Below the pieces are notes generated by a model that saw only the letters and a program-made list of their open reading frames with translations, did not search any database and was not told the origin of the DNA. Of a DNA stretch of 64,000 bases, positions 8,973 through 63,050 are shown piece by piece. A program made the position numbers and the translations under genes. The stretch's first letter is position 1. Each line of letters starts with the position of its first letter. Source of the stretch: Owenia fusiformis. Its lineage: Eukaryota; Annelida; Polychaeta; Sabellida; Oweniidae. The stretch is from positions 19,267,513-19,331,512 of the forward strand of contig CAIIXF020000004.1 of assembly GCA_903813345.2 (NCBI GenBank), in the 5' to 3' direction.

Positions 8973-9338
8973 TCTAACTAATAGAGCAGCTTCAGGATGT
9001 ATATTTTTCATGTAACATCATGCACCCTGACCACGGATAGTGGGAAGTCCTCCATATATTACTTATATTATATACACCAGGTAACGCAGCTTCCATCCAA
9101 AATAAAAAATATGTGATTTTAAAATAAATTATTTGTCTAGTTTTCGTTAAACAAATATCCTGAGACACATAGGGCCTGTAGAAAACACTAAACAGAAAAA
9201 TAAAAAAAATATTCGTACCTCCAAATCTGCTTTATTGGTCAGATAATGCACCAAATCATAATGGTAGTTCAAAATAAAAATTTAAGGGGACGGAGCACCT
9301 AATCTCGCGAGAATAAAGCAAATCACGCGAAGGCGCGC

Positions 9339-9650
9339 ATGCGCACAACGGTACCCGGAAACATGGCTCAGTTTGTGAATTTACCATGGGAAAATGTCAA
9401 GGATTTAGGTCATTATGTTTGCATTGTAGGTCAAGCAGGAACTGCTAAGACAACTCTTCTTCGAGAATTACTTTATGATGCCAAAAATGCCAGAAAAAAG
9501 GTAGAAAACGCAATAGTGTTCCCAAAAATTTTCGCGGGGTTTTTATGACACATCCGCAGTAGAAATTGTCAATTTACTGAGCGGATCTTTCAATGGCCTG
9601 GAGAAATTTTACTCACGAGAATTGATGATTACTGAACACATATAGGCATA
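9339..9650 (+). pseudogene. P-loop ATPase-like reading frame fragment, frameshifted
   Basis: An open frame from ATG 9339 runs to 9548. The second in-frame ATG (9363) gives MAQFVNLPWENVKDLGHYV followed by CIVGQAGTAKTTLLREL, a Walker A loop of the GxxGxxKT type after a hydrophobic beta strand, and then a second strand NAIVFP. At about 9540 this frame stops, but an overlapping frame stays open to a stop near 9648, which suggests one small frameshift. No Walker B motif is seen. I do not recognise the family; a captured host exon, or a packaging-type or helicase-like ATPase from a mobile element, are all possible. A splice donor GGTGAGT at ~9655 also makes an expressed exon conceivable. Confidence 0.45.
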
Positions 9651-10112
9651 AGAGGTGAGTGACCCAGTTATTTTTGCGTATAAATGTTTCAAGAATAGCA
9701 GAGCTGTCAAGTGTCCCGCGAATGGCGGGATTATCCCGCGAATTTGATCAAAATTGGGCTAATTCGCGTGTCCCGCAATGTCCCGCGAAGTCCCGCAAAT
9801 GTGGTTTTTGACCTCCGCGAATTTCCGAAATTGTTGCAATCCCCTATATTGTGATTATCTTATCTTATAAAAGAAGCTAAGTTTTTGCACTTTTGAGGAG
9901 TAAAGTTTACCTAATTTTAAGTACCTCGCATGCTGTTGTTTGGTATCAAAATAAAGAGGAAGGGTTCAACTTTCATTTTAATTACGAAAATAGGGATGTA
10001 GGTCAAAAATAGTTCTAACGTTGGGCTTTTTACTATCCGTGTGGCCTTCATCTCAGAACTGAGCAAATGTTAGCAAACGCGAGTTACAATAAATGGACGC
10101 TGATATCTAGAA

Positions 10113-11175
10113 AGGGTGCATTGTAGAAAAACCGGGTACCGGGTAGTAAATCCTCCATGCTGGGTTCAAACTTGGTACCCGGTACCCAGTCAAAAAACGG
10201 GTACCCAAAAAACGAAAAATACGAATATATAACATAATTAGATTATGAGAAAACGTGTAAGATTTGTTTTGAATTCACAAAAATGTATGTAACATCCTTC
10301 AAAATTGAGCTAGAAGCTTCAAATAAAAAGTATATTTAAGGCTCTTTTCTTCCTCTATCGTCATGGCCATATTTTCATCGGTTATGGGGGGGGGGTGCGA
10401 TCGCACCATCGCGCCATCTGGCTACGCCTATGACATTGTAAGACATAACAATTTACAATTCCAGGCCCGTAGCCAGGGGGGGTTCGCAGGCCCCCCCCTG
10501 GCCAAAAATTCTTTCAAAATCATGCAGTTTTTCACCATTTTGAGCACTTCTCAAGTGATTTTGGCCATATTTGGGCCAAAATTGTCAAATGTGAACCCCC
10601 CCTGGAAATTTTTGAAAAATGAACCCCCCCCCCTTGGCAAATCCTGGCTACGGGCCTGAATTCAGTGGGCATTTTGTCGAAAATTGGGATAACTTAAATT
10701 ATGATTATAATCAAAATCATGTAAATTAACACGTCACCTCCCTCCCAAAGCAACGATAGCTATTTACAGATTTAAATCATAATCAAAACAATTCACGTAC
10801 CAACAAACGAACTATTGAAAATAGAGTAAGATTGATTTGTCTTGTTTTTCAAATCGTCTTACAATGTCATTGGCGTAGCCAGGAGGGGGTGCGATCGCAT
10901 CCCCCCCTCCCCCTTTCATTACCAATGGAAATATGATGATAGACGACGAAAAGAGCCTTAAAATGCTTTTTATTTGAAGCTTCTAGCTCAATTTTGAAGG
11001 AAGTTACATACATTTTTGTAAATTCAAAACAAATCTTACACGTTTTCTAATGATCTAATTATGTTGTATATTCGTATATTTCGTTTTTTGGGTACCCGGT
11101 TTTTTCGACCGGGTACCAAGTTTGAACCCAGCATGGAGGATTTACTACCCGGTACCCGTTTTTTCTACAAACCCT
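10113..11175. mobile_element. Third-level nested foldback element
   Basis: A long palindrome: arms ~330 bp (10113-10450 and 10853-11175) with high identity, ends AGGGTGCATTGTAG / CTACAAACCCT, flanked by the exact 8-bp duplication ATCTAGAA (10105-10112 and 11176-11183). The arms include repeated GGGTACCGGGTA words and the palindrome GCGATCGC next to a long G-run. No coding capacity. Confidence 0.85.
10462..10658. mobile_element. Fourth-level 197-bp MITE with CAGGCCCGTAGCCAGG ends
   Basis: Perfect 16-bp inverted ends CAGGCCCGTAGCCAGG lie in the loop of the foldback element, with AATTC on both sides (5-bp duplication). A fragment of the same kind of end (TGGCTACGGGTATG) occurs at 51588-51601. 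Confidence 0.8.
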
Positions 11176-12083
11176 ATCTAGAAAAGTAACCCCATTCCCT
11201 ATAATTTGATGTAGATTAATCGAACCCCTATATCATGGGCTTTCAATTGAAAGAAAATTCCATGAATAGGTACATTTTAATATATAACATTATGGGGGTA
11301 AGCGTTTCATAGTTGTTCACGACGCCAGAAGTGCAAAGTATTGTTCCGAATTTTTGAATTTCATGTTAGATTACGGTACTCACACCTGAAGCATGGTTTT
11401 TGCTTTTGAAAAATTACAATAAAGTTTAATAATATTCCTATATGTATTTTGTGAAATTGTGTTGACGTTTATTTAAGTTACAATGCAACGGTGCATTGTA
11501 TTTGATTAATCAGTATCTGGAAGTTTGATTTAAGTACTTTTACACGCTTTTACATTAGTCCCAATCACGCAAATTCTTGAATGTCCCGGGACATCCTGCA
11601 AATTTAGGTGAATGTCCCGCGAAATCCCGCAAATTTAGGGCACTTTGTCTAAAAAATCTGTCCCTCTATCAAGTTTTGGGTGGTAAACCTGTTAACTATA
11701 GCGCAATTAGGGTGTTTGTCCCTCGAATGGTCCCGCGAAATACCGCGAATTTGATAAAAAAAATTGGCCTATTAGCGCAATCACGCAAATCCCTTAAATG
11801 TCCCGCGAAATCCCGCGAATTTAGTAGATGTCCCGCAAAATCCCGCGAATTTTGGGCACTGGGTCTAAAAAATCTGTCCCGCGAGAAAATCTTTAGGGGT
11901 TGACAGTACTGGAATAGCATGATATCAAATAATCTGTACATTATGCTACGATTCTTTCAAAAATTGAATCTAGAGGACAGGTGACCATATTTTTTTCATA
12001 TTTTTTTAATTTTTACTAACATTACCTGGTGTATATAATTTAAGTAATATATGGAGGACTTCCCACTATCCGTGACCCTGACC

Positions 12084-12382
12084 TTAACCTCTTGACTACC
12101 CAGAGTGACGAGATTTCTCGTCACCTCAGAAATGACCTTGGAACCCAGAGTGACGAGATAATCCGTCACAAAATATTTCACCAAAATAGCTCTTATTTGA
12201 ACAATTTTTATCCAATTTACACAAAAATTGTTTTAAAATGTCTAGAAATGATCTCTGCCGTCTAATTTTACTGAATTGAACATCGTCCGTTGTATATGTA
12301 TGTAGTAAAATGTCAAAAGGTGGCAAAAATGAAAAATTATCTGGTTTCAACCTATTTTAGAACCTGGGATTCAAGAGGTTAA
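12084..12382. mobile_element. piggyBac-like MITE (TTAA target site)
   Basis: TTAA followed by CCTCTTGA at 12084, and TCAAGAGG followed by TTAA at 12371-12382. An internal direct repeat CCCAGAGTGACGAGAT lies near the left end. 299 bp including both TTAA copies. The duplicated TTAA is the hallmark of piggyBac-type insertion. Confidence 0.7.
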
Positions 12383-12703
12383 TTGCCAAAAAGTCGAGTG
12401 ACAATGACATTTTAGATGTCGAAAATCTAATCTTGCAGAGGTCCGTGACGTTATAAATAGAATCGAGGTCTTTGAAGAATGTAAATCTGTATTACCTGTA
12501 GTTCGTATTTCTCTTCGTCCCCTCAATGAACAATTTTCGCTTCGGGTTTCCTTTTATAGCTGTTTTACGTACATTATGATCCACATTTATTAATTTCTTC
12601 GAAATGTCAACCCCAATGTCGTCATCATTTCAAAACGAGGTCCGAGAAATCCCAATGCCCTGGGCCAATCAAATGCCATTCTCAAAATTCATTTCGTTCG
12701 TTG

Positions 12704-12891
12704 CAAGGAGGATTGGCTCCCAGAATGCAACACCGATATTCTGCAAAACAATCACCTAGCGATAGCTTTGTTGGAGAGTATCGGGTCATTCTCCATGCAG
12801 TCGTACAAATTATACAGACACGAATAGCAAATGACGCATGCGTGGAGATTAAAGAATATCGAGTTGGAACCCTGGCTTCCAATCCTCCTTG
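12704..12891. mobile_element. 188-bp MITE with 8-bp TSD
   Basis: Inverted ends CAAGGAGGATTGG...CCAATCCTCCTTG with imperfect extension inward for ~40 bp, flanked by GTTCGTTG (12696-12703 and 12892-12899). Confidence 0.75.
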
Positions 12892-13017
12892 GTTCGTTGC
12901 GTACTTTCACTCTTACTACAAGGTAAAGATTCCACTGAACGAAAGGCTCAGATATTGCCCAAACGCAGGGGATCGCATTCGCACTTCGCAATGCCTCGTA
13001 ATACAAATGTGGTATGT

Positions 13018-14318: not shown

Positions 14319-14385
14319 ATATCCAGGTTTTAACAATGGAAGTGTAAAATAATATTTTACACTTCCATTGTTAAAACCTGGATAT
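14319..14385. repeat. Perfect 67-bp palindrome
   Basis: Two perfect 33-bp arms with a single A between them. The left arm starts ATATCCAGGTTTTAACAATG. It lies about 260 bp beyond the FABP stop codon on the FABP transcript side. Confidence 0.9.
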
Positions 14386-14708: not shown

Positions 14709-16730
14709 CTGAAAATAGACGAATTCATTACAATTCAATTAAATGTACATTTACATAATTTTGCTCTAGAAATGCTAAAAACCAACCAACTATTGGTGCA
14801 TATATTCCTGAGGATGTAGTTATTATAATGTATTAAAATTGTTGAAATGATATAACAATGTCTTCATATATTTGAAGAAGCAGTTATAAGCAGTCGCAGG
14901 GGTCTGCGGACCAGTTTTACACTGTTTTTTTTTATCAAAAACGTAGGAAATCACCACATTTTTACTTGACTTTGTAATTGTTCTTGTAACAACACAACTG
15001 TTTCCATGGTAACAATATTTTGTTATGACTAAATTAGTTCCACTATGGTAGCATTCCTAATATATGATGTCATAGTATCACGCTGTCATTAAGTTCTATG
15101 CCTCCATATCAGGTTATAGTAACACGCCCGGTGATCGTACAAAATGGATGGAGGGGGATTATGCGATTTCTGCAAGAAAACTCAACAAATTTGGAAGATT
15201 TATTTTTTCAAGAGAAAATTTACAACTGAATTGCCAAATGAATAGGCCCAGTGCATGGCAAAATATGTAAGGCCATCTAGTATTTTTTTGAACTGATACC
15301 CTTCTAAGATATGAGATCTATTAAAAAAGGCGCATCATCACCAACGTGCAAAAGTCAATGTTTTTGCTATAAATCGGGCAACAATGGTCTACACACGACC
15401 TGTAATAAATAAGTATAAGGGACGTTATTATCACAATACTAATGACATCTTGCTCATTTTTTAAAGTTAGTTTCCATGCGTTTTAAAAAAAATAATCGAA
15501 ATAAATTAATATTGGATGGAGGGGGGATAACGTGTATATACATGTAAGACATGATAAGACATGCTACTTGAATTTATTCTTATGACTCCAAATTTTCCCA
15601 TTTTTCATTCTCCAGAGATATAATATCCAGTTTCTTACTGGGGTTTCTTTGAAGGGTATCAGTTAAAAAAAATACTAGATGGCCTATGCCTAACATATTT
15701 TGCCATGCACTGCGCCTATTCATTTGGCAATTCAGTTGTAAATTTTCTCTTGAAAAAATAAATCCTCCAAATTTGTTGAGTTTTCTTGCAGAAATCGCCT
15801 AATCCCCCCCCCCTCCATCCATTTTGTACGATCACCGGGCGTGAGTACGTAAAGGTGAACGAAGTTATTCCAAACTGTAGAATCAACATCCTACAACAAC
15901 GAAATAGTAGTAATAACTTCCTTCCTTTGCCTAATTGTCTTATTAAAGAAAGAACAACGTCAAAACGACATTGATTTCACTGAACACTAAACTAATGGAT
16001 GTAGGAGGTGAGACACAGAATGTGGCACTTATTTGAAATGTTGTCCAAAAGTCCAAGATGATGTGAATTCCTACCAGTATCATAGTGTTATCGTCCACAA
16101 GTTCTCTTGTAATGATAGATTCTCCTGGACCCTTCTGGTGTTTCACCAGCTTCCCGTCTTTATTAGAGAATGTACTCTGGAAACAATCAAACCTGAAATA
16201 CTTTGCATATTTTGTACAATTTTGATTATATTGCCAATTTCAACGCCCCGTGTCAGTTTGAAAGATAAAAAAGAATTGTTCTTATTGTAACTGACCTAAA
16301 AAAACAAGAATTCACGGCCTACCTTACATTTTCTTCCATCTGCAGTCACTTCATCAAATTCTTCCTCAAGTTTGGCAACTCTGCTCGAATTTTTAAATGT
16401 AGATGTAACGTTTATAGTCCAGGAATCACCATCTTTTACAAGTTCTTCATGAGTTGATGTCACATTTCCTATCTTTCGTAATGCAAATCCCACACCTGCA
16501 ACAATTATTAAATCAGTTGTTCAGACATATAATTGCCTTCAAATGGCTCTCTTGGGCCCATACCAAAGCCTTGCCTATAGGTTTTGCCTTACAAATATGT
16601 TATCTTTATGTAGCTCTCTAGATCTATAGACGTAAGGCCATACCTAGAATTACATACCTACTGCCTTCATGTAGTTTTCTAGATTTTCTACTGATTTTTG
16701 GCTCCAATTTCCTTGAAGTCCATCTGCCAT
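14646..16730 (-). CDS. FABP: Fatty-acid-binding protein (intracellular lipid-binding protein family)
   Basis: Four exons: 16730-16658 (73 nt), 16495-16323 (173 nt), 16176-16075 (102 nt), 14708-14646 (63 nt), joined in phase to 136 residues plus stop. The first three sizes equal the classical FABP exon sizes; the last is 12 nt longer than the usual 51. The protein shows the helix-turn-helix lid (KAVGVGFALRKIGN, residues 22-35), DGDSWTI (46-52), KLEEEFDEVTADGRK (66-80), Arg106 in IITREL, and Arg130-x-Tyr132 in STRTYTR, the carboxylate-binding pair. It should carry long-chain fatty acids in the cytosol as a ten-strand beta barrel. Closest in character to the heart/brain/adipocyte group, but no one-to-one orthology is claimed. 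All splice sites are GT-AG. Confidence 0.96.
15123..15843. mobile_element. Foldback element in FABP intron 3
   Basis: Long inverted arms (15123-15305 and 15651-15843), ends CACGCCCGGTGATCG, with a GGATGGAGGGGG run close to each tip. The central part contains AGATATGAGATC and ACCAACGTGCAAAAGTCA. No coding capacity. A second copy is at 17866-18495 and a fragment of the centre at 57000-57100. Confidence 0.85.
16075..16176 (-). CDS. FABP: FABP exon 3
   Basis: Acceptor TTGTTTCCAG, exactly 102 nt in phase 0, donor CTG|GTAGGA. Encodes residues 83-116 with the ligand-binding Arg106. Confidence 0.95.
16323..16495 (-). CDS. FABP: FABP exon 2
   Basis: Acceptor TTGTTGCAG|GT, 173 nt, donor AAG|GTAGGC. 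Encodes residues 26-82 plus two bases of codon 25. Confidence 0.95.
16658..16730 (-). CDS. FABP: FABP exon 1
   Basis: ATG in context TTAAACATGG; 24 codons plus one base, donor G|GTATGT. The Gly codon at the join is completed by exon 2. An acceptor TTATTTCCAG just upstream (~16745) suggests a preceding 5'-UTR exon. Confidence 0.93.
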
Positions 16731-17865: not shown

Positions 17866-18495
17866 TCACGGAAAATGGGACGGATGGGGGGGGGGGTAGG
17901 CGATTTTTGCAAGAAAATTCAACAAATCTTGAAGATTTATTTTTTAGAGAGTTTACTATTGAATTGCTAAATGAATATAAAGCGCATGGTATAGTAAAAT
18001 ATGATCTACATGTATTAAGATCGGCGCAACGCACCAACGTGCACAAATCATGTTTTTGCTATATGTAACTTATGTTACATGTTATTTATCATCTTATATA
18101 TGAGTATATATACATAAATATGTTGAAAAAATAGTGAAAGTATGCGAAACATACTACAAGTGGCAGGTATCGCCTCTTACATGAGCAAGCGTCATGCTCA
18201 TATGTTTGAGCATTCTGTTATTTACAAGAATTTGAGAAGCTACTCCCTTCTTTTGTGCATTTCATATGTCCTGTCCAGCAGTGGAAGCATATTTCCAGAT
18301 CATATTCGGTCCCTCCACCAAACATGAAACATATGAATTCACAATAGTTTTCTGCTCCTAAGTTATACCATTGGCCTATTCATTTAGCAATTCAATGGTA
18401 AACTTTCTCTTTAAAAAATAAATCTTCCAGATTTGTTGAATTATCTTGCAGAAATCGCCTACTCCGCCCTCCGTCACATTTTCCGATCACCGGAC
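17866..18495. mobile_element. Second copy of the CGGTGATCG foldback element
   Basis: The right end CGATCACCGGACGT and the arms (AGGCGATTT...GCAAGA, ATTCAACAAATC) match the copy at 15123-15843. The left tip is altered and the GGGGGGGG run is longer. The arms have diverged, so this copy is older. Confidence 0.75.
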
Positions 18496-18499
18496 GTAA

Positions 18500-31600: not shown

Positions 31601-34600
31601 TGCTCAAAATCCTAACATGTCTATAACATGCATCAAGGTTATCAATAGATGAGTTTCAAGTTAATCTGACCATGACTTCTCAAGTTTTTACTATGTTACA
31701 AATGTTAGAATAGTTTTGAGATCCATAATTCATTGTCATGGTAACACTCATATATAACCCAAAATCTCAAAATGATTTTCAAATCAAAATAACCTTAAGC
31801 ATGTAACAGAGGACTGGAGGGGAGTTGCACGCAGTTTGATACACAGACAAAGTGCGCGCATATCAACATTGCAACATACAAGTTGGAGTCTGTTTTCAAA
31901 CATCATTTTACGACATTTATTCTACATTGGTTTATAGTTTCATACGTCCATTCGGTGGTGATCATATGATTCTACCATGTGATAACGAAAACTGTGTCCA
32001 GATTAACATAGGTTTTAAAATTTAAGCAGATTAATAAAAAATATTTCATCGGTTTATAGATTACCGACACATAAGTTGATGTCGCACTTTTCACAGAAAT
32101 CAAAATACTTGGGTTTTGTTTCATAGGTAAATCTCACCCAGGTTTCATGTACACTACAAAATATTTCATATTGAAGTAGATGATCATGAGACAAACAGAC
32201 ATTATATGACGCAACACTGTATATCTTGAACACGAAAGCTCCTAAGGAACCTTATATTGAGATAATTAGGTTAACGTCAGGGAAAAAATTGAGTGCTACT
32301 TGTAAGTAAGTAAAGTATGTAAGTCTCCACAAAACCTTGTCTTTCCAGTACTTTCATCCTTTTGGGAGTCGTGTCCTCCCCTCTTCCATTTTTAAATATG
32401 CGTGCAGTGTTTCAAACTGCGTGCATAGTATGCATGCAGTTTGGGTACCACGCCATATGATATTGCTTTTAAAGAGCTCTACCTCAGAAAGGAGAATTAG
32501 AAACCAACTAACTATGTAGCAGAGTACAGTATTAAAAGCTTTAGCAAGTTCCTCTATGCTACAATACTATCTAAAATTCACCTTCAGATTTACATATTTC
32601 TCATGATAAACTCATTATTAAAGATACCCATAAAGCAATAACATGAGAACTATGGGGTTACAATCCATCTCAAAAGGATTATCAACTGATCACAGAATAG
32701 TTAACTGAAACATAAAAATAAAAAAAAAAGATTCAAATACCTCAAAATCAATCCAGAAATTGTGATTTCAAGAAGATTGAATGATCAATATAGTCACCCT
32801 CCCAAGTTTCACATGCCCCCACTTGCAAAGATTGATATATAAAATGTTTTGCTAAGTTTCTAGAATGAACCCCAATTGTTAAGATGGACCCCTGTTGTTG
32901 AAATGAGATCCCCTTGAGATGACTTGCATTTATCTGTCAGGTGTGGCATGCCTATAAGGGCAAATGTCACCTACACGCACCCTCTTATTAAGGGCCTCCT
33001 CCTTGGCACGTAAACGTTCCCTCTCTAACTGGACCATCTTCAGCTGTTTCATATAATCAGTAGATCCCTATGAGCACAAAAATATAATCAAGTAAAATTA
33101 ACACCCTATGTAGACAGATTGCTTGAAATTACATAATCATGAGGAGAGGCTCAACATTCAGCAGGAAACTAAAAACATTTTGTATATATCATTTCATTTT
33201 TTACTGCTTAATAAAAGGTGAATGACAGACATATTTAGTTCTACAAGTATCAGAATAGCATAACATTTTGATATTTCAAGGTAACTCATCAGGAAATTAA
33301 TGGAGGCGATTGAAATTACAATGTGAAGGTAAACCGGCAGCAGAATATTTGAAAAACTAATATATTCTTATACATGAAGAGTAATGCTTACAGGTCCAAT
33401 ATCTCATGGTTGCATTAACTTTTGTTTCGTATAATGTCATGCAATTAATGTTTGAAACATGACTAATGTCATACTAGAACAACGGCAACGCCAAAGCGTA
33501 GCGAATCCCATCGAACAGAAATGGCTGGCAATTTTACAAACGAAATATATAGCAAACATCATAAAACAACACACCAGCTCACTAGCCAAGTTGTCATCAG
33601 AAGAAATAATATGCTTTTAAGTAGCCACCTATAAAATCTTTGAAAAATCGCATACATGTACTTGTAAAATAACACACATAAAAATGGTGGCCATTTTTCA
33701 AAATGGCTGACTACTCCCCAAAGTTTTATTAGACAATGTGCCATGCTTAAATTGTTCACATATCAAATATGAACAAAATCGCTCCACTACTTTTCGAGTT
33801 ATAGTAAAAAATGTAAAAATGACAGCCATTTTTATAAAATGGCCGCCTACTATCTGAAGTGTCATGAGACAGTGTGCAAGGCTCATGAGTATTCACATAT
33901 CAAATATGAACAAAATCGCTTCACTACTTTTCAAGTTATAGTAAAAAAACGTAAAAATGGTGGCCATTTTTCAAAATGGCCACCTACTACCCAAAGTGTC
34001 ATTAGACAGTGTGCCATAGTATTCACATATGAAATATGAAACATACCAAATATGAACAAAATCACTTCACTACTTTTTGAGTAATAGTAAAATACGTTAA
34101 AATGGCGGCCATTTTTCAAATTTTTTTTCAAAATGGCCGCATTCTACCAAAAGTGTCATAGAACGGTGTGCCATGCTTATAGTATTCACATACCAAATAT
34201 GAACAAAATCGCTCCACTACTTTTCAAGTTATAGTAAAATACGTTAAAATGGCGGCCATTTTGAAAAATGGCCGCCTTCTACCAAAAGTGCCTTTGGACA
34301 GTGTGCAATGCTTATAGTATTCACATACCAAATATGAACAAAATCGCTCCACTACTTTTCGAGTTATAGCAAAAATCGTGAAATAACGAGTAAAGGCCGC
34401 CATTTTTCAAGATGGCTGCCATGTGCTTCTTTAATGTCTACATTTGTAGCTTTATTAATGTCCTTCATAATTTTTTACATTTAAAACATATTGCTATTAC
34501 AGTTTTACATATTGCACCTAAATTACTGTAAAATCGGCACTAAAATGGCTGCCATTTTGAATTGAGCGGCCATTTTGAAAATCGGCTTTCGAGCAGAACT

Positions 34601-37600: not shown

Positions 37601-40600
37601 ATATTTTTTGCCCATTGTGAAGAGAATCTACAATACATTTGAGTACCAATCCATACTAAGTCTTGTTTAATAGTGATTAGTGCAAATCAATATGATCTAA
37701 TTTCAATGAGGTGTTTTTTCAATTTTTACTTATTTCATTTATTCAAGTGTCTACTTACGAGTAAGCCGAGGGTCAAACCAGCTTGTATTTTTCGAAATAT
37801 GATTTATGAAATAAACGTGGCCATCAGGTGTTACACTCTGCTCCCATCCTGGAGGAAGTGGTCCTAGGGTACTGCTGCTGTTGGGGGTTGCCTGCTGGGG
37901 GGCAGGAGCTGCTGCTGGGGAGCTACTTGGTAAAATCTTCCTTGGGTCATCCCAAGTTGTTACTTGATCTGCGTGACTGGAAGGTATAACAGATATAACT
38001 TATTAACAAATGTGTATTATTGTATATATGAAAGATACATGTAATCAGGGCACGCCTTAAGCGTCGGACTGTCGGACTTGTCCGGTAGAATATTGATGGG
38101 ACCGGTTAAAAATTAAAAACTGTCGGACATACTGACCGATACATACTAGTCAACTGGAAATACGGCCTGGATATTTTGTCCGATACCTTGACACGACCCC
38201 TAAACTTAGCTGGGAGTGTGGCTGTTCATTCATCTTTACACGCCCCTTATATTTAATTCAATATTAATTAATGGAGCCTACGTTTGTTAACTGTTCGACG
38301 ATGATCCACAGGGGTCAGTGTCATTAATAGATCAGCCCTTACGTCACTGCATACATAATTAATCAGTATCACGTGAATATACGAATATATCCAAATATAG
38401 GTAACGGAAAGTAGCGAATGCGATTTTACCCTAATTCAGGAACTATTTCTATATCCGGTCAAGTTCGATGCATTCATTTGCAAAATTTGCGGCCAAACCT
38501 GGCGCCAAGCGGGGTTCTGAAGGTAAGTAGAATAGCTAGAAAGATTACTCAGTAATCCTAGATCATCTAGAACTATAATTTATGTCCCTTTTAAGCCATA
38601 AATTGCCGCAAAATGATAATTTCCAGTTCAATTTTTAAAAATGGCGGTCGAAAAAGTTTCGTAATGAGTGCTTAGGTTATGAGTTTTATCACTCATTATA
38701 TATATCCATGCGCCATAATGACTATGAATGAGTTTTACTACGATCAAATAATTTTTACTACGATGTGATGTTTTTGTTTTTTCTGATTTATTTTAGTATA
38801 CTGTAATAAATGAGCTTGATAAATAGAATAAGGTGCTTTTTTTTACTTTAAGAGTTATTTTCATTGACCAGCTAAGTCTCTCAATGACCAGCAGGTTTTG
38901 GAGTGCTGCTGGTCATTGTGACCAGCTGATTTTATAGTTGACCACCTCGAATTTTAATACTGCTGGTCATGATGACCAGCAGGGAAATTTGGCTTAAGGC
39001 GTGCCCTGCATGTAATTGGATTCTCAATTTAACAACTAATATGGTGTCCAACACATATGCATCAACAATGTGATCTAGTGTCTTTGGAACAAGAAGAGCT
39101 CTTCAAATGTGGAGGTAGTATGCAGAATAAACACTCATATTTCTATATTTATAGATAGATGTAGATTCTTATTGATTAATAGCCCAAATCAGTAATTAAA
39201 CATTTGTTTGACGTATAGTCGTATATACACTGACTGAAACAAACATGATCCCCAGGGATCGGCGACCAATTTTGGCCTGAACCAGAGAATAGTGAGGTCA
39301 ATATCCATGGTAACCCGACCCAAGGGATGCTAACCCATCCTTACTTTTCTATACTTTCTTTATATGCAAGTTTTTAAATTTGACATTTTACATTTCAAAA
39401 TATATCTACCAAGATTTAATACTTTATTTATGGTCACTAAGGTTCATGACCTCATTCAAAACATAAACATCATGTAACTGGTGTACATCTTTACTTTACC
39501 TATCATGTTGCATAACAGTAATACTGTAAACATATATTAACATACAAACAATTTATCATTTACATTTTAGAAAAAGGGTAATTACCTTTAAAATGATATG
39601 TTAGTATGAACATGGTTCTAGTCTAAAAAGCCCTGGGCAACAGAATTCACAAACAAAGTTGAACCATCATCCATCTTACCAAGATATTTTAGCAATAGAG
39701 CTGAAGAAAGTTGCATAAACAGATCTCAGCACTTGTTTTTATTTGTTCTGGTTGGGCCAGACTGCCATAGGCTTCAATGGTAAAAACTTGCTATATCGTC
39801 ACTTACCATTCGCGAATGCAACTAACACCTGACAGCTACCGGATTAACCTACTATTCTATGACCAAATCATTTAAATATGAATGAATAGTGGCAGGTACT
39901 GTTCATATCTAAATGACTTTCCAGTAAAATAGTAGGTTAATCCGGTAGCTGACAGGCGTTAGTTGCATTCGCGAATACAAACTTTATTTCACGAGTTATC
40001 AAAATGTGTTGGTTGAATCTGTCTAAAAGTTGATGACCCTGTTATGAAAATATTGGTTGTTGAACGAATAAACAAAGGTATTAAAGAATTTTATCATTGA
40101 GATTTGGTTCTCACTTTTTTACTCACTTTTCTCAAGTTTTTTAAAAAGTTATGGAAAATAGCATTACTGTAAAAATCAAAGTTATTGGTGTAGAAAACGT
40201 TTCACTGAAATCAAATATCCTAACAAAAAGAAGCAAAAGTAAATCACTCCAGGTTTAATTCGCAAACCTCTTAAAATCACATGAAATTTCAAAGCTATAA
40301 AGAAACTGCTCTATTATGCGATTATGAACAAATTGTTCAGAGCATAAAACAAAATGAGACAAAGGCCATATCTGTAGATTTTGATCAACATCTCTCCTTC
40401 AGGAGACAATGGGACATTTTATATATGTGTGCCAGTAAATTAAATCTCCTTGTATGTAGAGTTCATATGAATGTATTAGACAGTTAGACAGCTAGCTTTG
40501 ATTGAGAGGCAAGCTGTTAGAAGTCACATCTGGTCTTCCCACACTTGTCCCAACCTCAACATCACCTTTCACTTCAATTTGTCACTGGCCATGCCAAATT

Positions 40601-43600
40601 TATACCATTTTCTCCTAGCACTGATTACTTGTCTACTTACTAATTATGTAACTTGAAGCAACTTTTGGAATCAAGGGATATACTGAAGAATAAAGTCTGG
40701 TTGGACTGAATAAAAAGGGGTTTTCTTTCAAAAGTAGATGCAAATTAATTTTTATTTAAACAAAGATCTACTTAGAAGATTCACAGGGTTTCCAGTCTGA
40801 AACATGGATTTTGATTGGTTCCGACGTATTCCGGAAAATGCCGAAACCGAAATGGAAGATCAAAACATACACTATTGCAGAAATGCCCAGTGGTGCCCCA
40901 CGAATTGAAAGACTTGTTTTTCATGATTAGTTAAATATTTATGGGATAAGCATTTCCCAGGTATTACATGTAATGAAAAATATTATATTGGTAGCCCTGG
41001 ATTATCCAAGACTTCATCTATGAAGATTATCCAATTTAAAAGTTGTATAGTCAGTGGTAAACAGAATAAGAACAGCATATATTTTTTAGCCAACAGTATT
41101 TTGAATTCTGATTGATTTTTGAACATGTCGAAAAATAGTTAAGTGCTCATCCAATTGATTATGTATTGTACACTGTAAATATTATGTATATATTTTGTCG
41201 TTCATTTTAAATATAAAAAAATCTTTATTATCTCCACTAGAAACCATTATATATCTATCTAATGTTATACATCAAGATAACTGAGATATCAGAGTAAGAA
41301 GGAGAAATGCTAATAAAAAGAAGCAAAAGTTCACAACCTTGACATGACCTTGAAGATCGCAAGTTGGTAAAACGTGAAAACAAAACTCTTTAATTTGAGC
41401 ATTTCCTTCATTCATTTCGGACTATTTTGGTATAACATTACTTCAGAATTGTGTGAAAAGGACCCAATGATAGATATTTATCAGGAGGATGCATCGAATT
41501 ACAATGTATGTCATTTTTATCCTGTTTTAGTGTAAGCACTCTATTATCGCCCACTTTATTTTCACGTTCACAATATTTTTCTTGAACTTTATGAAAAAAA
41601 AAATTAGACAGGACTCACATTTTTCAAATGGGTTGTGTCCCTGGGACTCAGAAATTTAAATGGCTATACCGCGAACACTGTTGCCCATATCTCAACTTTG
41701 CTAAACATATGGGTTCAATAGTGAAAGGGTTAGGGAATTGATGGACAGGGGGCCTCAGATACAGATAAGGAAGTAAAACAGATACAGTAAGGATGTATTG
41801 CTGAATAATGTGAGGAAAGTGCTTGGAGGATTACTCAATGCTACACCTTCATTTGAATCTTTATTGAAATCATACCTATCCAGATAATATAAGTTGCTGT
41901 TTGAGCAGCAAGTGGTGGCCATACCAACAACTAACACTCATCTGTAAAATTATATGATATACAGCTGAAATATCTCAAGTAACTCCAGAATAAAATGAAA
42001 TATAGCACACCTTGTAACATTAGTACTTTTTGTTGGAGGGGGTGGCATTTTTGACACTCTGTATATACATTTATCGAAAATACAGGGATCTTACTTGGAC
42101 ATTTGATGACGGTATGGTCCTGAGATAGTATGGAGGAGGAGGTTGAGATTTTGAAATTTATATCCAGTGCATTTTTGACATTTATGGGACTACTTCTTTT
42201 GATTTTTCTAATAGAAATGCATCAATGATTTAGTGCAATCTAAGAACATCCATCATCTTAGTACTTTCTACATGTTCAAATTAAGAGGTCATTTACAGTG
42301 TCTGAATAGAAGTAATAATACATGTCTTATAGACACAAAGCAAGTGCTAGATATTCAACTATTGTTATTAAATGTTGCCAATCATTCTCGTTTTTATATT
42401 TTAATATGCACAATCAAGTGGTACAAAATCCATCTTACTGTTAGTGAGTTATTTAGTAGAATTCTATATAATACAGGGCTCTCAAAGGGCTTATTTGAGT
42501 CTTTGTATCTTTATGCTTGTATCGTAAAAAAAACACACAATGCATCGATATATCGATGAATCGAGGGACCTGGGACCCCTACGATATATGATGTTATATG
42601 AGCAGTTATATTAGGACATTACTGATTGTCCGGGAGAAAAATCTGGACAATCCGATTTTAAACAAGACCATCCTAAAAGTTTTAAATTTGGAGTAGGGAG
42701 AGGTTTCTTCAATGGGCTCATGCTCAAAGACATGAACATATAGAAATGATAAGATTTATGTATGTGTTTATATGAGAATATTATACAGACAACATCATCC
42801 TTCAATCTGAGTACATCTTCCCTTTCTAAGTTTTATAGGAATCACAGATCCACATGGCTGTTGGTGCATTTGTTGTCTATTCTTGACTGTTGTAGTGTCT
42901 CTTTAGAACTAGAAGATGAAATGTATCAAGAGTCAGTAATAGATAATCTTGCATAGGTGCTCGAATGAATAATCTTGCATAGGTGCTCGAATGAAAAACC
43001 GCTCTACATAGTACTGTATTTACCAATATATATCAATAGGTTTCTGTATCTTCTATTCAGGGAGTTGGATGTAGATACAAATACAAAAGTAGAATTAGTA
43101 AAGAACAAAGAAAATAAAAGTTTAGCTATCAACATACTAAACTGTATATTAAAATACCACTTAAAGAAACTTTGGATGTATGGGATTGACTAAATATTAT
43201 CAGAGAGAGAGTTTCACATGATTAGGTGAAACAATTCTGCAAGGGCCATATACAGTACCATGCCCTTCATCAAAATATGATACTATGTTACTATGGTAAC
43301 CAAGGGTGGGCCTACATAAAGAAACCTTGCAATAACTTTCAGTTATTCTGAAAGAAATGCCAGAAAATCAGTTTCCTGAAGCATGAAGTGGTGAACAATA
43401 TCTTTCATATTTTCAAGCAAAAAATCTAAGATTGAAAAGCTTTTTTGAAATGTTGCTGCCAAATCCCATGATATTGATGCTTTTTTCAAAGGGGAGAAAC
43501 AAACCAGTTTTCTTCATTGAAGGGAAGCATACTGCTGATAAATTTCAACTCCTAGTAAACCTGCTAAAATGTTCTTATTTTTATCATAATATAGAGAGAT

Positions 43601-49600: not shown

Positions 49601-52600
49601 TATGGCATAGTTGAATGATACGTTTAGAAACTAAAAAAACTAAGTGTAATGTATATAGAACTCTATAAATTGACATTAAATAATAACCTGCCAAGATTTA
49701 TTAAAAGTTCCAATATAGCAAATATCTGCCTTCATCAAAACTGGTCATTCTTAGTTCATCTGAGTAACCTGGTCATAACCGCGATATTTAAAACGCCGCC
49801 AAATCCGAACAAATCTACTAAGGGTTAGAGGAATTTCTAAATAGCTTTGGAATCTTTGTCATTTAAAGGACATGCGTTCATTAAAACTAGTCTTTCTTAG
49901 TTCTTCTAAGAAAGACTAGTTTTAAGAAGTAAATAGCCGCTATATTTAAATCGCCGCCGAATCTTAAGGAGTCCCGGCATTATGAACGAATCTACTAAAC
50001 GCAGTTTCGCGAACTGGATAAATGGTCAATTCTGGGAACAGAATCATAGATATAATGAAGAGGTTTCGCACAACAGGTTAACCAAATAGGGGGATATTGG
50101 AGTGAAACCCCCGGGAATAATCTCAGAGTTTAAAGATGACATACGCTTAATTATAATGTAAATTTATTCTGATGGTCAAAATCTACAAAAATGGCAGCCT
50201 CAGAATTTTTATATGATTCGAATAATATTAGGCCAATGTTCATTTCTGGAGAATTTAAACAATGTCATAGGAAGGTGGCAAGCAAAATACGTAATTATGT
50301 CTGGTATCGTCTAAGCCTTTGGGGTTCCCCACCTCTTGGGTTAGCTGAAACGTACCCGTATTCGTATATTTCATTACGTTTACGAATACGGTATTTCGAT
50401 AATTTTTGTTTCGCAGTACGTTTTTTGAAGTACGTAATTTTGAACGCATCTCAATCTGCGGCTATTATTATTGCCATGGGCTTTCACTAGTTGAAAGCCC
50501 ATGGTATTGCGAACTAGTGTCAAATAAATGGCCTCGTTTGCTCTCAGGTTCCAATTCGTCGGTAGTCTAAGCTTTTAAAATCCCACCTCCATTCGAATTT
50601 TTGGTAATGCAAAAATAGGCATTAACCTTTTTCATCCCAAAGAGGGTCATTTATTAATTTTATTTAATCACTTTCAAAATAAACGATTTCTAGGTTTACA
50701 CTAACTAATTCAGTGAAAAGTAAACTTTGTAGAATATTTAATTTTATGAGTCATAACTCAGATAGGCTTAGATAGTGTTCATAAATGCAGTGACTCCATT
50801 ATGCTACAAAATACGTAAACAATTTTGTTATAGGTAGAAGTTTCTTTTGAGAATATTAAGATTGCACTAAGTGTGTATTGACTTAACATAAAAATATACA
50901 CCATTGACTGTATATCTAAAAACTTCCAAGTTGACAACCAGAATGCAAGATGGCCGCCGAAAGGTTAATCAGCTCAAGAACTTCTTACCATGTAATATGT
51001 GTGAAATTTAAAGTAAATCTGTCTCATGATTTTCCTGGAATCGTGATAACAAGAAAGTGCATAAGACCTCAACCGCACGCCGTCCTCCCGTTAAGCTGAC
51101 GGCAATATCATACCTTTTTTAGGTGCGATAAAAGCCTTCTTTAACTGTTAACAACGCCAACTAAATAACAAAATACATTTTGACCCAATTATCTAGCGTG
51201 AATTCATCTTTTAAGGGGTCAAATATGGGACATCAAGTACTGTATTTCATAGGATGGGCCAAGAAAATAATGTTGGCCCATATTGTAGGGCCTCTTTAGT
51301 GGGCCTTTTGGGCCTTACTTGACCTTTTTGGGCCTTATTTTTTCAATGTTATGCCAAATTTTCAAAAAGCTGGCCATAAATTTTCAGAATTTTGGCACAA
51401 ATTTTGGTTTTAGGGCCCTAAAAAGTTTTTCCTCGCAAGTGCGGATATTTTTTCATGACTTGAAGTGTGGGCCCCCCTTGTTAGCTTCCGGATCCGCCAC
51501 TGTCTTTTACAATACAATTTTTTTTTGGGGGGGGGGGGTTGCGGGGGGGGGGGGGGGGGGGTTCGAGCCCCCCCCCCTTACAAAAAGCTGGCTACGGGTA
51601 TGAATAACAATAGTAAAATGCTAATGGACTTCATGAGACCAACATATCTTGTAACTGGAACTGAATATATGTTGAAAGCAATACAAGTTATGGGGAAAAT
51701 ACGTCGAATTATACGAAATACTTACGTCTTCTGCTAGCCAAAATGGCCTCAGCCGGGACGAATCTAAATTGCGAATGGTCTATGTGGAACGAAACTGTAG
51801 CAATTTCTATCAATGCAATATCATTTATGGAATAAATAGTCTAAATAGTCGATCAAAGATCATTTATAATTCAAATAACCATGCATAAAGAATTTGTTTT
51901 CAGTGAAGTCGAGAAGAATTGAGTCCATCTGAACCGACGCTCAATCACTTTGTCCATTGGTGTCAAACGTCACGCACGTTAGAATTTTATTGGTTCTATT
52001 CTATTTTCTGCATACAATAATTGACGAAATTTTCTGAACTGTGAAACTGAGATTAGACAAAGCAATAAAAATCAGTGCTTGGCACTCCTGACAAGACTAT
52101 TGACATAACCATTAACATAAGGACAAGATGTACATCTTTTATAACGTGCGTAATTGCTTGACACGAACACTTTTATCACATATAAATTAAGCTATGGTGT
52201 CAAAAAACAGATTAATGACGAAAACAACCACAATATTTGCTGATTCCAGATGAATGTTCCCTTTCTTACATTTAGGTGTGTGTGAAAATCGTTTTATATC
52301 AGCGAGAAATTTAAGTAATTCGTTAATGCGAGAGTATGGCGGATTAACGTGCGTAACGAAGTTTGACACCAATCTTCGAGCAACTTATAAAGACCATATT
52401 GCCGCTTCAGAGTTGAAACTTACCACTGGATCTATAACATCGCGTAAATGTGTAAATAAAATACAATTTCATTTACACATGTGATCGCGCATTTTGTATG
52501 AAAATAGGCTTTCTAACGTGCGTGACGAGTTTGACACGAAAAACGATAATGCACGCAACTGAGCATAAAAATTATTTTCCATATATACTTCATATAGCAT

Positions 52601-55600: not shown

Positions 55601-58600
55601 CGCCAAACTATTGCTGGGGTGTACATATAATTTTGATTGCTGTTAGCTAACCGCGGGACGCACAAATTAGCTCGATCACAATTTCTTTGATAATGAATTG
55701 AGCTGTATGTCAAAACTAATTAGGTGCTTTCCCAAGTAGAAATTCACCAATCAGAAAACGTACATATTTGAAGAAAGATATGCATGATGGGATTGAAAAG
55801 GATGCCGTTTGTTGATTAAACTACTCACCTATAGTAACATTCCCGGGGGAAATCCTCCCGGGGACAGATTAATGTTCCCTCTATTGACCAAACTTGGTAC
55901 TATACTCCACTCCACCTTTTGTAAATAAGGTCCACATATGCATTAAAAGAAGCTTTAAAAGACAATATACATGATACTAAATGGAATGTACAATTTAGCT
56001 GTATTATACAATATAATATGGTGGAAATGAAAGCTTTGACAATTATTGACTGGGTGAGGGCATGTATTCAAGCTGAGGACATGATTATTGATCGCCTTTT
56101 TACCTCACGTCAGACTCATGCAAAAATCTCACCTTTATTTTCTGCATTTTACATTTTTTCTCATCAAAATTCTACTAAAGTGTCTCATTTATTTATATTA
56201 GTCAACAAAGAGAACCATGAGCTTGTAATTGCATCTTCTAATAACTCATATATTCCTACTGCTGCTGCTGCTGTTGCTTCTCTTTTTTGCTGTGCTGCGT
56301 TATTATAAGGATGAATTTTAAACATCCTAGATTAGATATTGCAAAAATGCTACATTAAAAGAAATGTAATTATTTTACACCATTATTTGTATTATTACTG
56401 AACTACAAATTTTTTAAAGTAAGACAATAGTGGAGATTGAACCCAAATAAAACGTGAATCAATAAGTTATGACCAAAAACGAGTTGAAAACCACATATTT
56501 ATTTCTGCAATAAAATCGTCAAAATGGCCGCCAGAAAACAAGATGGCCACCCAAAAGTTAATCAGCTCTAGGGACAGAGATAAAATGATTAAGTTTCACA
56601 TGGCATTATTTGGTCATTTTTGGGTTACTGTACTCCCGGTTAAAAGTTGTATTTAACTATTAGAGTGATTTTCACTCCTTTTCAAAGCTTTAATATGTTC
56701 TATAACACTGAATTTTGCTTACGCATTTGGAGTGGATATTCACCTTTAATGAAAACAGAAGTTGATTATATATTGACCACCGGCGGATCCAAAATTTTGT
56801 GTTAGGGGGGGGGCGTGTGATAGTAATTGTGGGCGAAAAGTCAAATTTTGTAAAAAGCGATGAGGCAAAACACAAATTTTCTGACTTTTTAGGGGGGGGG
56901 GGGGGGCGTGCGCCCCCTACGCCCCCGTCTAGATCCGCTGGTGTTGACGGAATGTTGTGTTAGGTGTGTGTTAGGTCTTCTATTATTTTTTTCAACCGAT
57001 ATGCTTCGTAGATATGAGATCTTTTAAGAAAGGAGCATTGTCACCAATGTGCAAAAGTCAATGTTTTGCTATAAATCTGGCAACAATAGTACACAACTTA
57101 TGGATAAGGTTTGTATCAAGCAAAAATTCAAGCAAATATTCAAGTTTACATCCAATTTACTGGTTTACACTTAGTTTTCATCAGACCTTGGTGTGTACTT
57201 TGATGTAACTAACCTCAAGTACTACTTTTTTCATGGCCTGACTTCGTCGCTAACATGCTAAATATAAGAGTTAGCTGACGTTTGGGAGTCTGACTTACCT
57301 TCTAAAGGTTAGAACCCGAATCTTAATGAAACCATATCACCTTTGTTCCGTCAACCATGGAGCATTTGCCACGACATCCAAGAGGTAAATCATGGACCGA
57401 GAAAATGAATGATTTCCTTGTAAGTTCCAGAAGTTTCAATACGAAAAATTACCGAACATATTAGTCTATATGTGAAAACCGAATATTTGTTCGTTGTTTT
57501 CACGATTTACAGGTTCGTTTGTTCTTCAATGTTTTGGTCTAAATTATAAAGCATCACCAACAGGTCTTACTCTATTAATCGACTAATACAGCAGACGGCT
57601 CATATTTCTACGTAGCATTTCATTCAGACCAATAGTGGGAGTGTAGATCACGCAGTTTCGTTCGTTGCGTACTTCACTTGAAATTGGTAATTTTAAATAT
57701 TGACTACTTCACTCAGCTTGGCGGATGTAGAACATTGCTTAATATTCTTTTAATTTTCACACCAGACATGCTTGGTTGACACGTCAACAAAGTAAAGTTC
57801 AAGGGTCAATGCGTTATTTCGTGATAACTACAACGCCTTCCCGGAAGTCAACATTGATGAAAAATGAAAAAGTCGGAAAAGCATTTACACTAATTTCTAT
57901 CAAATGATATGTTTATGCATCATCATCGACGCAACAAAGGTGATATGGTTTCATTAAGATTCGGGTTCTAACCTTTAGAAGGTAAGTCAGACTTCCAAAC
58001 GTCAGCTAACTCTTACATTTAGCATGTTAGCGACGAAGTCAGGCCATGAAAAAAGTAGTAAATAGGTATTTACAGTGGCAGTGGTATTTGTAGTGTACAA
58101 AAATTGACCAGTACTCTCCCCCCCCCAAAAAAAAATACAGCGCATATCATGATCATATAATATTGCCTTTTCATTTCATATAGATGATGAATCATCTGAT
58201 GGAAAGATACCGAGATGATGGGATACATAAGAAGTACTTCAATTTCAAAATCAACATAGCATCTTGAGCCTTATCACCTAAGTTACATGTGACTCACTCC
58301 ACCTACTCCTGAAACTTGCAAAACAAACTTTAGGAAGTGCAAAACTAACCTGAAGCCAAGATGGCTGACATTTTTAACTTTCAAAATAAAAAATAAAACT
58401 CACTTTATAAAGTATTTTTGGCCGTTCTGTGCTATGGCTGAAGTCCAGCCGGGGGGCAAATGCGCCTCACCATCGAGGGTGGTGTCTACGCTGTGTTGCC
58501 GGAAGTGTTGAGTCTGGGGTTTGGGGGTAGCGAGAGGGGTTTGTTGAAAAGCAGCAGGAGAGCTGACACTCCGAGTATGTACGGGTACGATAGGTAAACT

Positions 58601-58825: not shown

Positions 58826-59470
58826 ATTATCACACTTTCCCTCTCGCTATTCCACGTAAATTCCAGCTATAATGAGCGTTAGTAATCCATTGACGATAAT
58901 ATCATGTTGTTTTTCCTTGATTCGAAAGGTTACCTGAGATTTGTAGTACTTTTTCACTCATACGAAAACTTTCCTCAACTTCTTCTTGGTGTTAGATGTA
59001 CTTAGCCAAACTACGTACTTTCCAGGTGTGATATATTACTACGCTAGAATATAGTACTTGTTTACCTTGTTTTGTTGAATATGTCTAAGTAGAATGATTC
59101 CATGCGCATGTATTTAATTGATTCAAGTACACAGTTTAAAGGGGTTCGTTCACTTTTTAAAAGTTTTAAAACTATATTGAAAAACTTAAAAACTTCGTAC
59201 AAAAATCAATTAGGACACGATTCGCAGGGGGTCTTAAATGATGACGTCATGATTGACCTAGAGGTCATATGAACACACCTGGCAACTCGTTTCGTCTTGG
59301 TGTAATGATAACCAGGGGACAGTTACCAGATTTCATTCAAAAAGTAGTGATCACAGTTTATGGATTTTTCCTAAGTTGCCAGCATGTGTAGTTATTCATA
59401 TGTTATCAATGATAGATAAGATATAGAAAATCTAGATAGTTCTACTTTGACTGTAGCACGAACCTACTTT
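58826..59470 (-). other. YAP 5' flank
   Basis: Contains the 5' UTR and perhaps the core promoter of YAP, since no acceptor was found close before the ATG. No TATA box at a convincing distance. A TGACGTCA word (CRE) lies at ~59241-59248. Confidence 0.4.
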
Positions 59471-61797: not shown

Positions 61798-63050
61798 CAA
61801 CATGTGTCAGGGCACCTACACATATCGTAGGAAGCGGGGTAAACGGGGTACATAGCCTTACGTATATACCCTACATTGATACACTGTGTCCTATACATAG
61901 CTTGGGAAGTGGGGTAAGCGGGGTACATACCTTTACATGTAAAGTACACTCCCCTCCATAAGTTTGGCAACCTTTTCCCCCCATTGAACTACGTGTTAAA
62001 GCCTCTTTACCTTTGAATTTTTATTTACTTAACCTGCGATGAAAATACTTATACTATTGATGGAAACGTAATTTGACTTTAATTCCAATACCTCGAAATT
62101 TTCTCAATTTTTTCCTCAATTACAATAGGTCGAAAATTGATGATGAATTTGATGAATTTTTCAAAATCGACATTTCCATGTTAACCAATGGGAAATGGTA
62201 GGTTTGCCACAAGTCATATGACAGAATATCCATCCATCCGAGTCCTTGCAAAAAATACGAGTTAGGCAGGAAATCGAATTTGCTAACTTTATTTAACAAA
62301 AAAATTATATGTTTCATCAGGTTCAACAAAGTTATAGGGCTTTAAAGTCAAAATTGTTTTTCAAAAAACCTCTCCCATTGAAATAACGTACAGGAGGCGA
62401 AAAATTATTTTCAAAAATGACTTTGAAGCGCTGTAACTTTAATATTCATCAAATAAACTAAACATTTAGTGTTCAAAAAAGTTAGACAATTCAATTTTCT
62501 ATATAAAAATAATTTTTGCTGAATCTTTTACTGAAAAGATATCCTGATTTCTGATTGGCCTCGAACCCTTCATTTCCCATTGGATTACGTGGGAATGACG
62601 ATTTTCAAAAATTCCTCAAATTTATCATCAATTTTCGACCTATTGTAATTGAGGAAAAAATTGAGAAAATTTGGAGGTATTGGAAATAAAGTCAAGTTAC
62701 GTTTTCATCAATATTATAAGTTATTTTATCGCCGGTTAAGTAAATAAAAATTCTAGGTAAAGAGGCTTTAACACGTAGTTCAATGGGGGAAAAAGGTTGC
62801 CAAACTTATGGAGGGGAGTGTATGTATAATTATTACTAAATTGTTTCAAGCTCCTACATGTATACATAAATATCGTGGTCGACGGGGTAAACGAGGTACA
62901 CTCTACATTGCTACACTGTGTCAGGCACCTCTACACATCCTGAGAAGCGGGGTACATAGCCTCTAGTATACTCTACATTGATACACTGTGTCAGGCACCT
63001 ATACATAGCTTGGGAAGTGGGATAAGTGGGGTAAGCGGGGTACATACCTA
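61798..63050. repeat. GGGGTACATA / CTACATTGATACACTGTGTC tandem array, split by an insertion
   Basis: Units of GAAGCGGGGTAAACGGGGTACATAGCC plus ACCCTACATTGATACACTGTGTC lie at 61798-61945 and continue at 62865-63050 with three more. The break is filled by the Tc1-like element at 61947-62820. Confidence 0.75.
61947..62820. mobile_element. Tc1/mariner-type foldback MITE, TA target
   Basis: The ends CACTCCCCTCCATAAGTTTG / CAAACTTATGGAGGGGAGTG are directly flanked by TA on both sides (61945-61946, 62821-62822). Inverted arms of ~210 bp are nearly identical. The centre (62156-62606) has no transposase. Confidence 0.88.

Follow-up and report, generated by a model that had tools for sequence, protein, structure and literature searches.

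A nest of four small inverted-repeat DNA elements within 3 kb of the Owenia fusiformis genome

Architecture of the nest

We analysed a 64-kb window of the Owenia fusiformis genome (the whole stretch of DNA, 64,000 nucleotides). At 9032-12074 the window holds four inverted-repeat elements, here called E1 to E4, lying one inside another and each flanked by direct repeats, which from the outermost to the innermost read ACCCTGAC, GAATAGCA, ATCTAGAA and AATTC. The original prediction described a four-level inverted-repeat nest at this place, and this was borne out: all four direct repeats are exact and stand at the positions that it implied. The features are as follows, with a strand where one is assigned.

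9024-9031: left direct repeat of E1, ACCCTGAC, by sequence match
9032-12074: E1, the outermost element; inverted ends 9032-9084 and 12022-12074, starting CACGGATAG
12075-12082: right direct repeat of E1, ACCCTGAC, by sequence match
9693-9700: left direct repeat of E2, GAATAGCA; its final two bases are the first two of the CAG end
9699-11911: E2, the second level; ends CAGAGCTGTCAA (from 9699) and CAGTACTGTCAA (to 11911); about 1.14 kb without its insert
11912-11919: right direct repeat of E2, GAATAGCA, by sequence match
10105-10112: left direct repeat of E3, ATCTAGAA; the exact match reaches TATCTAGAAA
10113-11175: E3, a fold-back element; arms at about 10113-10444 and 10856-11175; 861 bp without its insert
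11176-11183: right direct repeat of E3, ATCTAGAA, by sequence match
10457-10461: left direct repeat of E4, AATTC, by sequence match
10462-10658: E4, the innermost element, 197 bp; ends CAGGCCCGTAGCCAGG, matched at 16/16
10659-10663: right direct repeat of E4, AATTC, by sequence match
10418-10434, minus strand: E4-like end motif CATAGGCGTAGCCAG in the left arm of E3, by likeness to CAGGCCCGTAGCCAGG; suggestive only
10868-10883, plus strand: E4-like end motif CATTGGCGTAGCCAGG in the right arm of E3, by likeness to CAGGCCCGTAGCCAGG; suggestive only

The direct repeats abut the exact ends of E1, E3 and E4, and to that extent the claim that each junction is intact holds; it does not hold as worded for the left junction of E2 or for the length of the E3 duplication. 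The left end of E2 starts inside its left repeat, so that the 12-bp ends (10 of 12 bp matched) and the 8-bp repeat are offset from each other by 2 bp. The duplication may have been 8 bp with one CA of CACA since lost, or 6 bp followed by a coincidental CA. At E3 the direct match extends over 10 bp (TATCTAGAAA, that is, ATCTAGAA plus one base on either side), and the symmetric readings pair AGGGT ends with 8 bp or GGGT ends with 10 bp, placing the duplication at 8-10 bp. Likewise, three of the four levels had been said to use 8-bp targets; the repeats of E1, E2 and E3 do read as 8 bp, although that of E2 may be 6 bp and that of E3 up to 10 bp.

The inverted ends of E1 are complementary at 52 of 53 bp, and without its insert and one copy of the insert's repeat the element measures about 824 bp. 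The case for E3 rests on its long arms and flanking repeat: over 319 gap-free columns the arms, each about 320 bp long, share 302 identities, and a further 38 columns of the alignment hold gaps. A 3-bp indel close to the left end kept E3 out of a scan for 8-bp repeats with 14-bp ends.

E2 is a single unit split by E3, because CCGCGAA sites fill both of its outer parts and these parts align with each other in direct orientation (E 1.4e-7). Of the 11 plus-strand CCGCGAA sites in the window, 10 lie in the outer parts of E2, with starts at 9716-9815 (a left stretch of about 9716-9849) and 11617-11843, on either side of E3. The sites outside E2 are at 41669 on the plus strand and at 9531, within E1, on the minus strand.

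Element families at the four levels

Published values below are those given in excerpts of the cited papers. hAT inverted repeats are put at 5-27 bp (PMC3517528) or 10-25 bp (PMC3942097), and among the four levels E2 appears to fit hAT best, its 12-bp ends (10/12) lying inside the 5-27 bp range (PMC3517528); we therefore name it hAT-like, as a provisional label. E2 resembles hAT superfamily MITEs in its CAG ends, about 12 bp long, in a TA-centred flanking repeat readable as 8 bp, in its subterminal repeats and in the absence of a transposase, and it differs from them in the 2-bp offset between its ends and the 8-bp repeat. E2 could instead be of the hAT6 type, with a 6-bp duplication. The names hAT5 and hAT6 are given to hAT families whose duplications measure 5 bp and 6 bp (PMC12730594). 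E4, with AATTC on both sides and 16-bp perfect ends, would be hAT5-like judging from its duplication length and ends. Its 5-bp flanking repeat and CAG ends are shared with hAT5, whereas a single copy of E4 was seen in this window and a transposase is absent from it.

E3, with arms of about 320 bp, lies above the 5-27 bp range of hAT ends; it is a long-arm fold-back element, probably Merlin-like or Mutator-like by its anatomy. Merlin elements have inverted repeats of 24-462 bp starting with GG and duplications of 8-9 bp (PMC8101967, as excerpted), and MULEs have 8-11 bp duplications (PMC3903597). The Mutator-like definition in the excerpted plant study (PMC3903597) combines 8-11 bp duplications with inverted repeats that are more than 75% alike, and E3 falls within it on both counts (8-10 bp; 302/319). 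Against the Merlin values, the arm length of E3 lies within 24-462 bp, its ends are AGGGT or GGGT depending on where the duplication stops, and its duplication is 8 to 10 bp, the GG end being present only with a duplication of 9-10 bp. E3 has in common with Merlin and Mutator-like elements the long inverted repeats, the 8-10 bp flanking repeat and the GGGT or AGGGT ends; it differs from them in that fold-back arms occupy most of the element and that a transposase is absent. A Pfam scan of the ORFs found no MULE transposase within E3. A placement of E3 among hATm elements (ends TAGGGTG, duplications of 8-9 bp; PMC6004678, as excerpted) was also considered and rejected, since TAGGGT ends put the flanking repeats out of register.

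For E1 no superfamily is assigned; it is perhaps P-like. Its 53-bp ends, identical at 52 positions, are longer than the 5-27 bp of hAT, and its 8-bp duplication ACCCTGAC, which has no TA at its centre, has the length used by the P superfamily. P element ends start with CA. E1 shares with P-superfamily MITEs a CA end, an 8-bp duplication and its non-autonomous state, and differs from them in lacking P coding sequence. P stays a candidate for E1 because P elements duplicate 8 bp, yet the ends of Anopheles P elements measure 27-31 bp against the 53 bp of E1 (PMC1562414, as excerpted).

Elsewhere in the window, a clean hAT-like element lies at 38038-39016, with CATGTAAT on both sides and ends CAGGGCACGCCTTAAG. 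When terminal 100-mers were compared, the right end of E1 and the left end of this 38-kb element, which lies outside the nest, scored 26, equal to the 99% level of random pairs, and they were the sole cross pair to reach the 95% level; this resemblance would favour a hAT link of E1 a little.

The left part of E1 also contains an open stretch with weak similarity to P-loop proteins.

9303-9545, plus strand: open stretch with a P-loop-like motif, left part of E1; 81 codons, ATG at 9363

Its Pfam matches were AAA_16 (E 7.2e-4) and NACHT (E 1.4e-3), both under their own gathering scores; the best PHROGs match had E 0.0052, and for the 61 residues from the ATG at 9363 the best PDB match was UvrA (E 0.0015). 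The stretch is possibly a captured gene fragment rather than a transposase, and we consider capture its likeliest reading. A second open stretch of E1, at 9517-9642, had no match in Pfam or PHROGs. Relatives of the P-loop fragment were sought in two collections that are not expected to hold the host: viral_contigs gave 8 pattern matches, of which 0 were confirmed, and phages gave 7 records with a best E of only 0.1. Upstream of the ATG at 9363 stand TCTCGCGAGA (9303-9312) and GCGCATGCGC (9335-9344). Both, we assume, resemble motifs of animal promoters. A more elaborate scenario would make E1 a gene-capturing (Pack-type) animal transposon carrying the start of a P-loop NTPase gene, both its promoter-like region and its first coding part, and later broken by three unrelated elements, and would have E3, with an E4-like end in both arms, re-entered by the same kind of MITE; we consider this conjunction decidedly doubtful.

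Across the nest, no transposase domain was found by Pfam among the 21 listed ORFs of at least 45 aa (stop to stop, 9000-12100), several of which cross nest junctions; setting the P-loop stretch aside, a single match came in at E<=1, DUF3937 (E 0.082, under the cut-off). The four nested elements at 9032-12074 are most likely cut-and-paste DNA transposons of non-autonomous type, MITE-like or fold-back, whose levels come from different families, and we put the probability of this reading at roughly 0.88. Each level would represent one insertion, in which a transposase supplied from elsewhere, acting in trans, recognised the inverted ends and left a short duplicated target. From their anatomy we infer the superfamily names: E2 would be hAT-like, E4 hAT5-like, E3 Merlin-like or Mutator-like, and E1 perhaps P-like.

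Order of arrival and alternative readings

The order of insertion had been described as fixed by the junctions. That goes too far: when an outer element moves, its insert may travel with it, and nesting by itself does not force the order; the simplest order of arrival, E1, E2, E3, E4, is nevertheless likely. Under the alternative of cargo movement, one or more of the inner elements would already have been inserted at another site when the host element came to its present place, and the true order would not run simply from outside to inside. Such a history is compatible with the identities proposed above and nothing in the window excludes it. The arms of E3 already bear E4-like end motifs, which may be the trace of a layer that predates the pairing of the arms, although they are only suggestive. 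There is also a precedent in rice, where one and the same MITE occupies a shared site in 107 similar MULEs, 40 intact and 67 partial (PMC3903597, as excerpted). Cargo movement requires extra movements, however, and nesting is normally read as temporal order, as in REANNOTATE (PMC2672092, as excerpted). We judge it unlikely, and treat nesting as temporal order as a fair default, likely to hold but an assumption here.

Nested transposons whose duplications can still be read are routinely used to put the activity of element families in order, and the nest resembles the nested clusters of REANNOTATE in having elements within elements and a relative chronology; it differs from those described in the excerpt in that small inverted-repeat DNA elements make up each of the four levels, all within 3 kb, and an LTR element for dating is absent (PMC2672092). 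Nesting equals arrival order only where cargo movement is excluded. The proposal to date the levels by the divergence of their arms proved unsound. Inverted repeats, unlike LTRs, need not be identical at insertion, and because they need not start identical, the matches of 52/53 for E1, 10/12 for E2, 302/319 for E3 and 16/16 for E4 yield no age.

A further possibility is that the boundaries of E2 are spurious, its direct repeat and short ends being a chance pairing, which would leave a nest of three certain levels. The ends match at 10/12 only, lie 2 bp out of register and, taken alone, score under the 95% level of random 100-mer pairs. But a scan for an 8-bp repeat with CAG ends matched at 10/12, allowing 2 bp of slack, found two matches in the window, E2 and the clean hAT-like 38-kb element, against a mean of 0.1 and a maximum of 1 in 20 surrogates. 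Moreover, the CCGCGAA repeats that fill both outer parts of E2 begin about 17 bp inside its left boundary. With these results, a spurious E2 is very unlikely.

The original prediction attributed the nest to one hAT-like machinery repeatedly entering its own relatives. Several features point that way: three of the four flanking repeats read as 8 bp, CAG ends occur on E2 and E4 (and on these two levels only), and the 8-mers of E2 and E3, though not that of E1, have a TA at the centre, as do the 8-mer duplications of Buster-type hATs (PMC3517528, as excerpted). The termini of the four levels are nevertheless dissimilar. In a comparison of terminal 100-mers with 300 random pairs, no pair from different nest levels reached the 95% score of random 100-mers, whereas for E1, E3, E4 and the 38-kb element the left and right ends of the same element did so. 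Additionally, the inverted repeats of E1 and E3 are too long for the 5-27 bp of hAT (PMC3517528), and the duplication of E4 is 5 bp. An 8-bp duplication is, moreover, common to P elements (PMC1562414), Merlin (PMC8101967) and Zisupton (PMC12730594), going by the excerpts of these papers, and the same duplication length need not mean a common transposase. The attribution to one machinery is not supported, and we regard it as highly improbable; the reading of four levels from different families is preferred.

The nest is not a product of chance. In this window an exact 8-bp match at a fixed offset arose in 30 of 400,000 random position pairs, an exact 8-bp match with 2 bp of slack in 201 of 400,000, and a 5-bp match in 740 of 400,000. 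Surrogates were Markov resamplings that keep dinucleotide frequencies on average, with n=10 for the two scans using 14-bp ends and n=20 for the scan using CAG ends. The scan for 8-bp repeats with 14-bp ends at up to 3 mismatches gave 10 matches in the window, including E1 and two that fall inside the arms of E3, whereas the 10 surrogates averaged 1.2, with a maximum of 3; that for 5-bp repeats with 14/14 ends gave two, E4 and 39830-39954, and the 10 surrogates yielded 0. Inverted repeats abound in the window (88 pairs of at least 20 nt within 6 kb, of which 25 were listed), but these surrogate and random-pair controls, the perfect direct repeats that abut E1, E3 and E4 at their very ends, and matching target duplications at nested boundaries, which a misjoin would not create, make an assembly artefact or chance pairing of repeats as the source of the whole nest exceedingly improbable.

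The nest is real, well bounded and ordinary, made of element kinds that are already known. With four small DNA elements stacked in 3 kb, it makes a neat example and offers candidate boundaries for four element families of the host; it opens no long-standing question. It is useful chiefly as a warning against reading a common transposase from duplication length, or arrival order from nesting alone.

Copies, relatives and surroundings

BLAST found no second full copy of any level in the 64-kb window. Outside the nest it returned short, weak matches only: for E1 at 32708-32749 (81%), and for E4 at 51565-51598 (82%). Besides those in the arms of E3, an E4-like end motif lies at 51588 on the minus strand. 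Each level is at most a candidate for a repeated, mobile family, because no second full copy was seen in the window or in viral_contigs, genome_contigs and phages, collections not expected to hold the host. In these collections, the ends of E1 and E3 had 0 exact matches each in viral_contigs and genome_contigs, and the whole nest had no match in phages. The E4 end occurred at 32 loci of viral_contigs, a count with no chance level attached, and a second motif within 3 mismatches was present at 4 of the 32 (L007, L018, L024 and L031); at L024 no element was apparent by eye. Six element-end strings were used in a literature search and none was found, and Rfam gave no match across the 64-kb window.

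An open stretch at 58400-58846 on the minus strand matches YAP, with Pfam TEADIR3 at E 2.6e-6 and the PDB chains Yes-associated protein, Yorkie homolog and YAP1 at a best E of 2.4e-8. A WW-like stretch lies on the same strand near 37.8 kb, and we read both as exons of a YAP/Yorkie-like gene, which marks the window as animal DNA. Followed in the direction of this gene, the nest comes after them, either in an intron or beyond the gene.

Several other repeat structures lie around the nest. One base from the right repeat of E1, a small element at 12084-12382, with ends CCTCTTGACTACCCAG and CCTCTTGAATCCCAGG, stands between two TTAA; we presume it to be perhaps a piggyBac-like MITE. At 800 bp from the nest, 12696-12899 holds an element with an 8-bp repeat, GTTCGTTG flanking 12704-12891, and ends CAAGGAGGATTGG. 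A long-arm inverted repeat at 15123-15843 starts with CACGCCCGGTGATCG and has a related, more decayed copy at 17873-18497, with no clear flanking repeat by eye. Two long-arm inverted-repeat elements flanked by TA lie at 57220-58060 and 61945-62822, their flanks presumably as in Tc1/mariner elements, and a perfect 33-bp hairpin with 1 base between its arms lies at 14319-14385.
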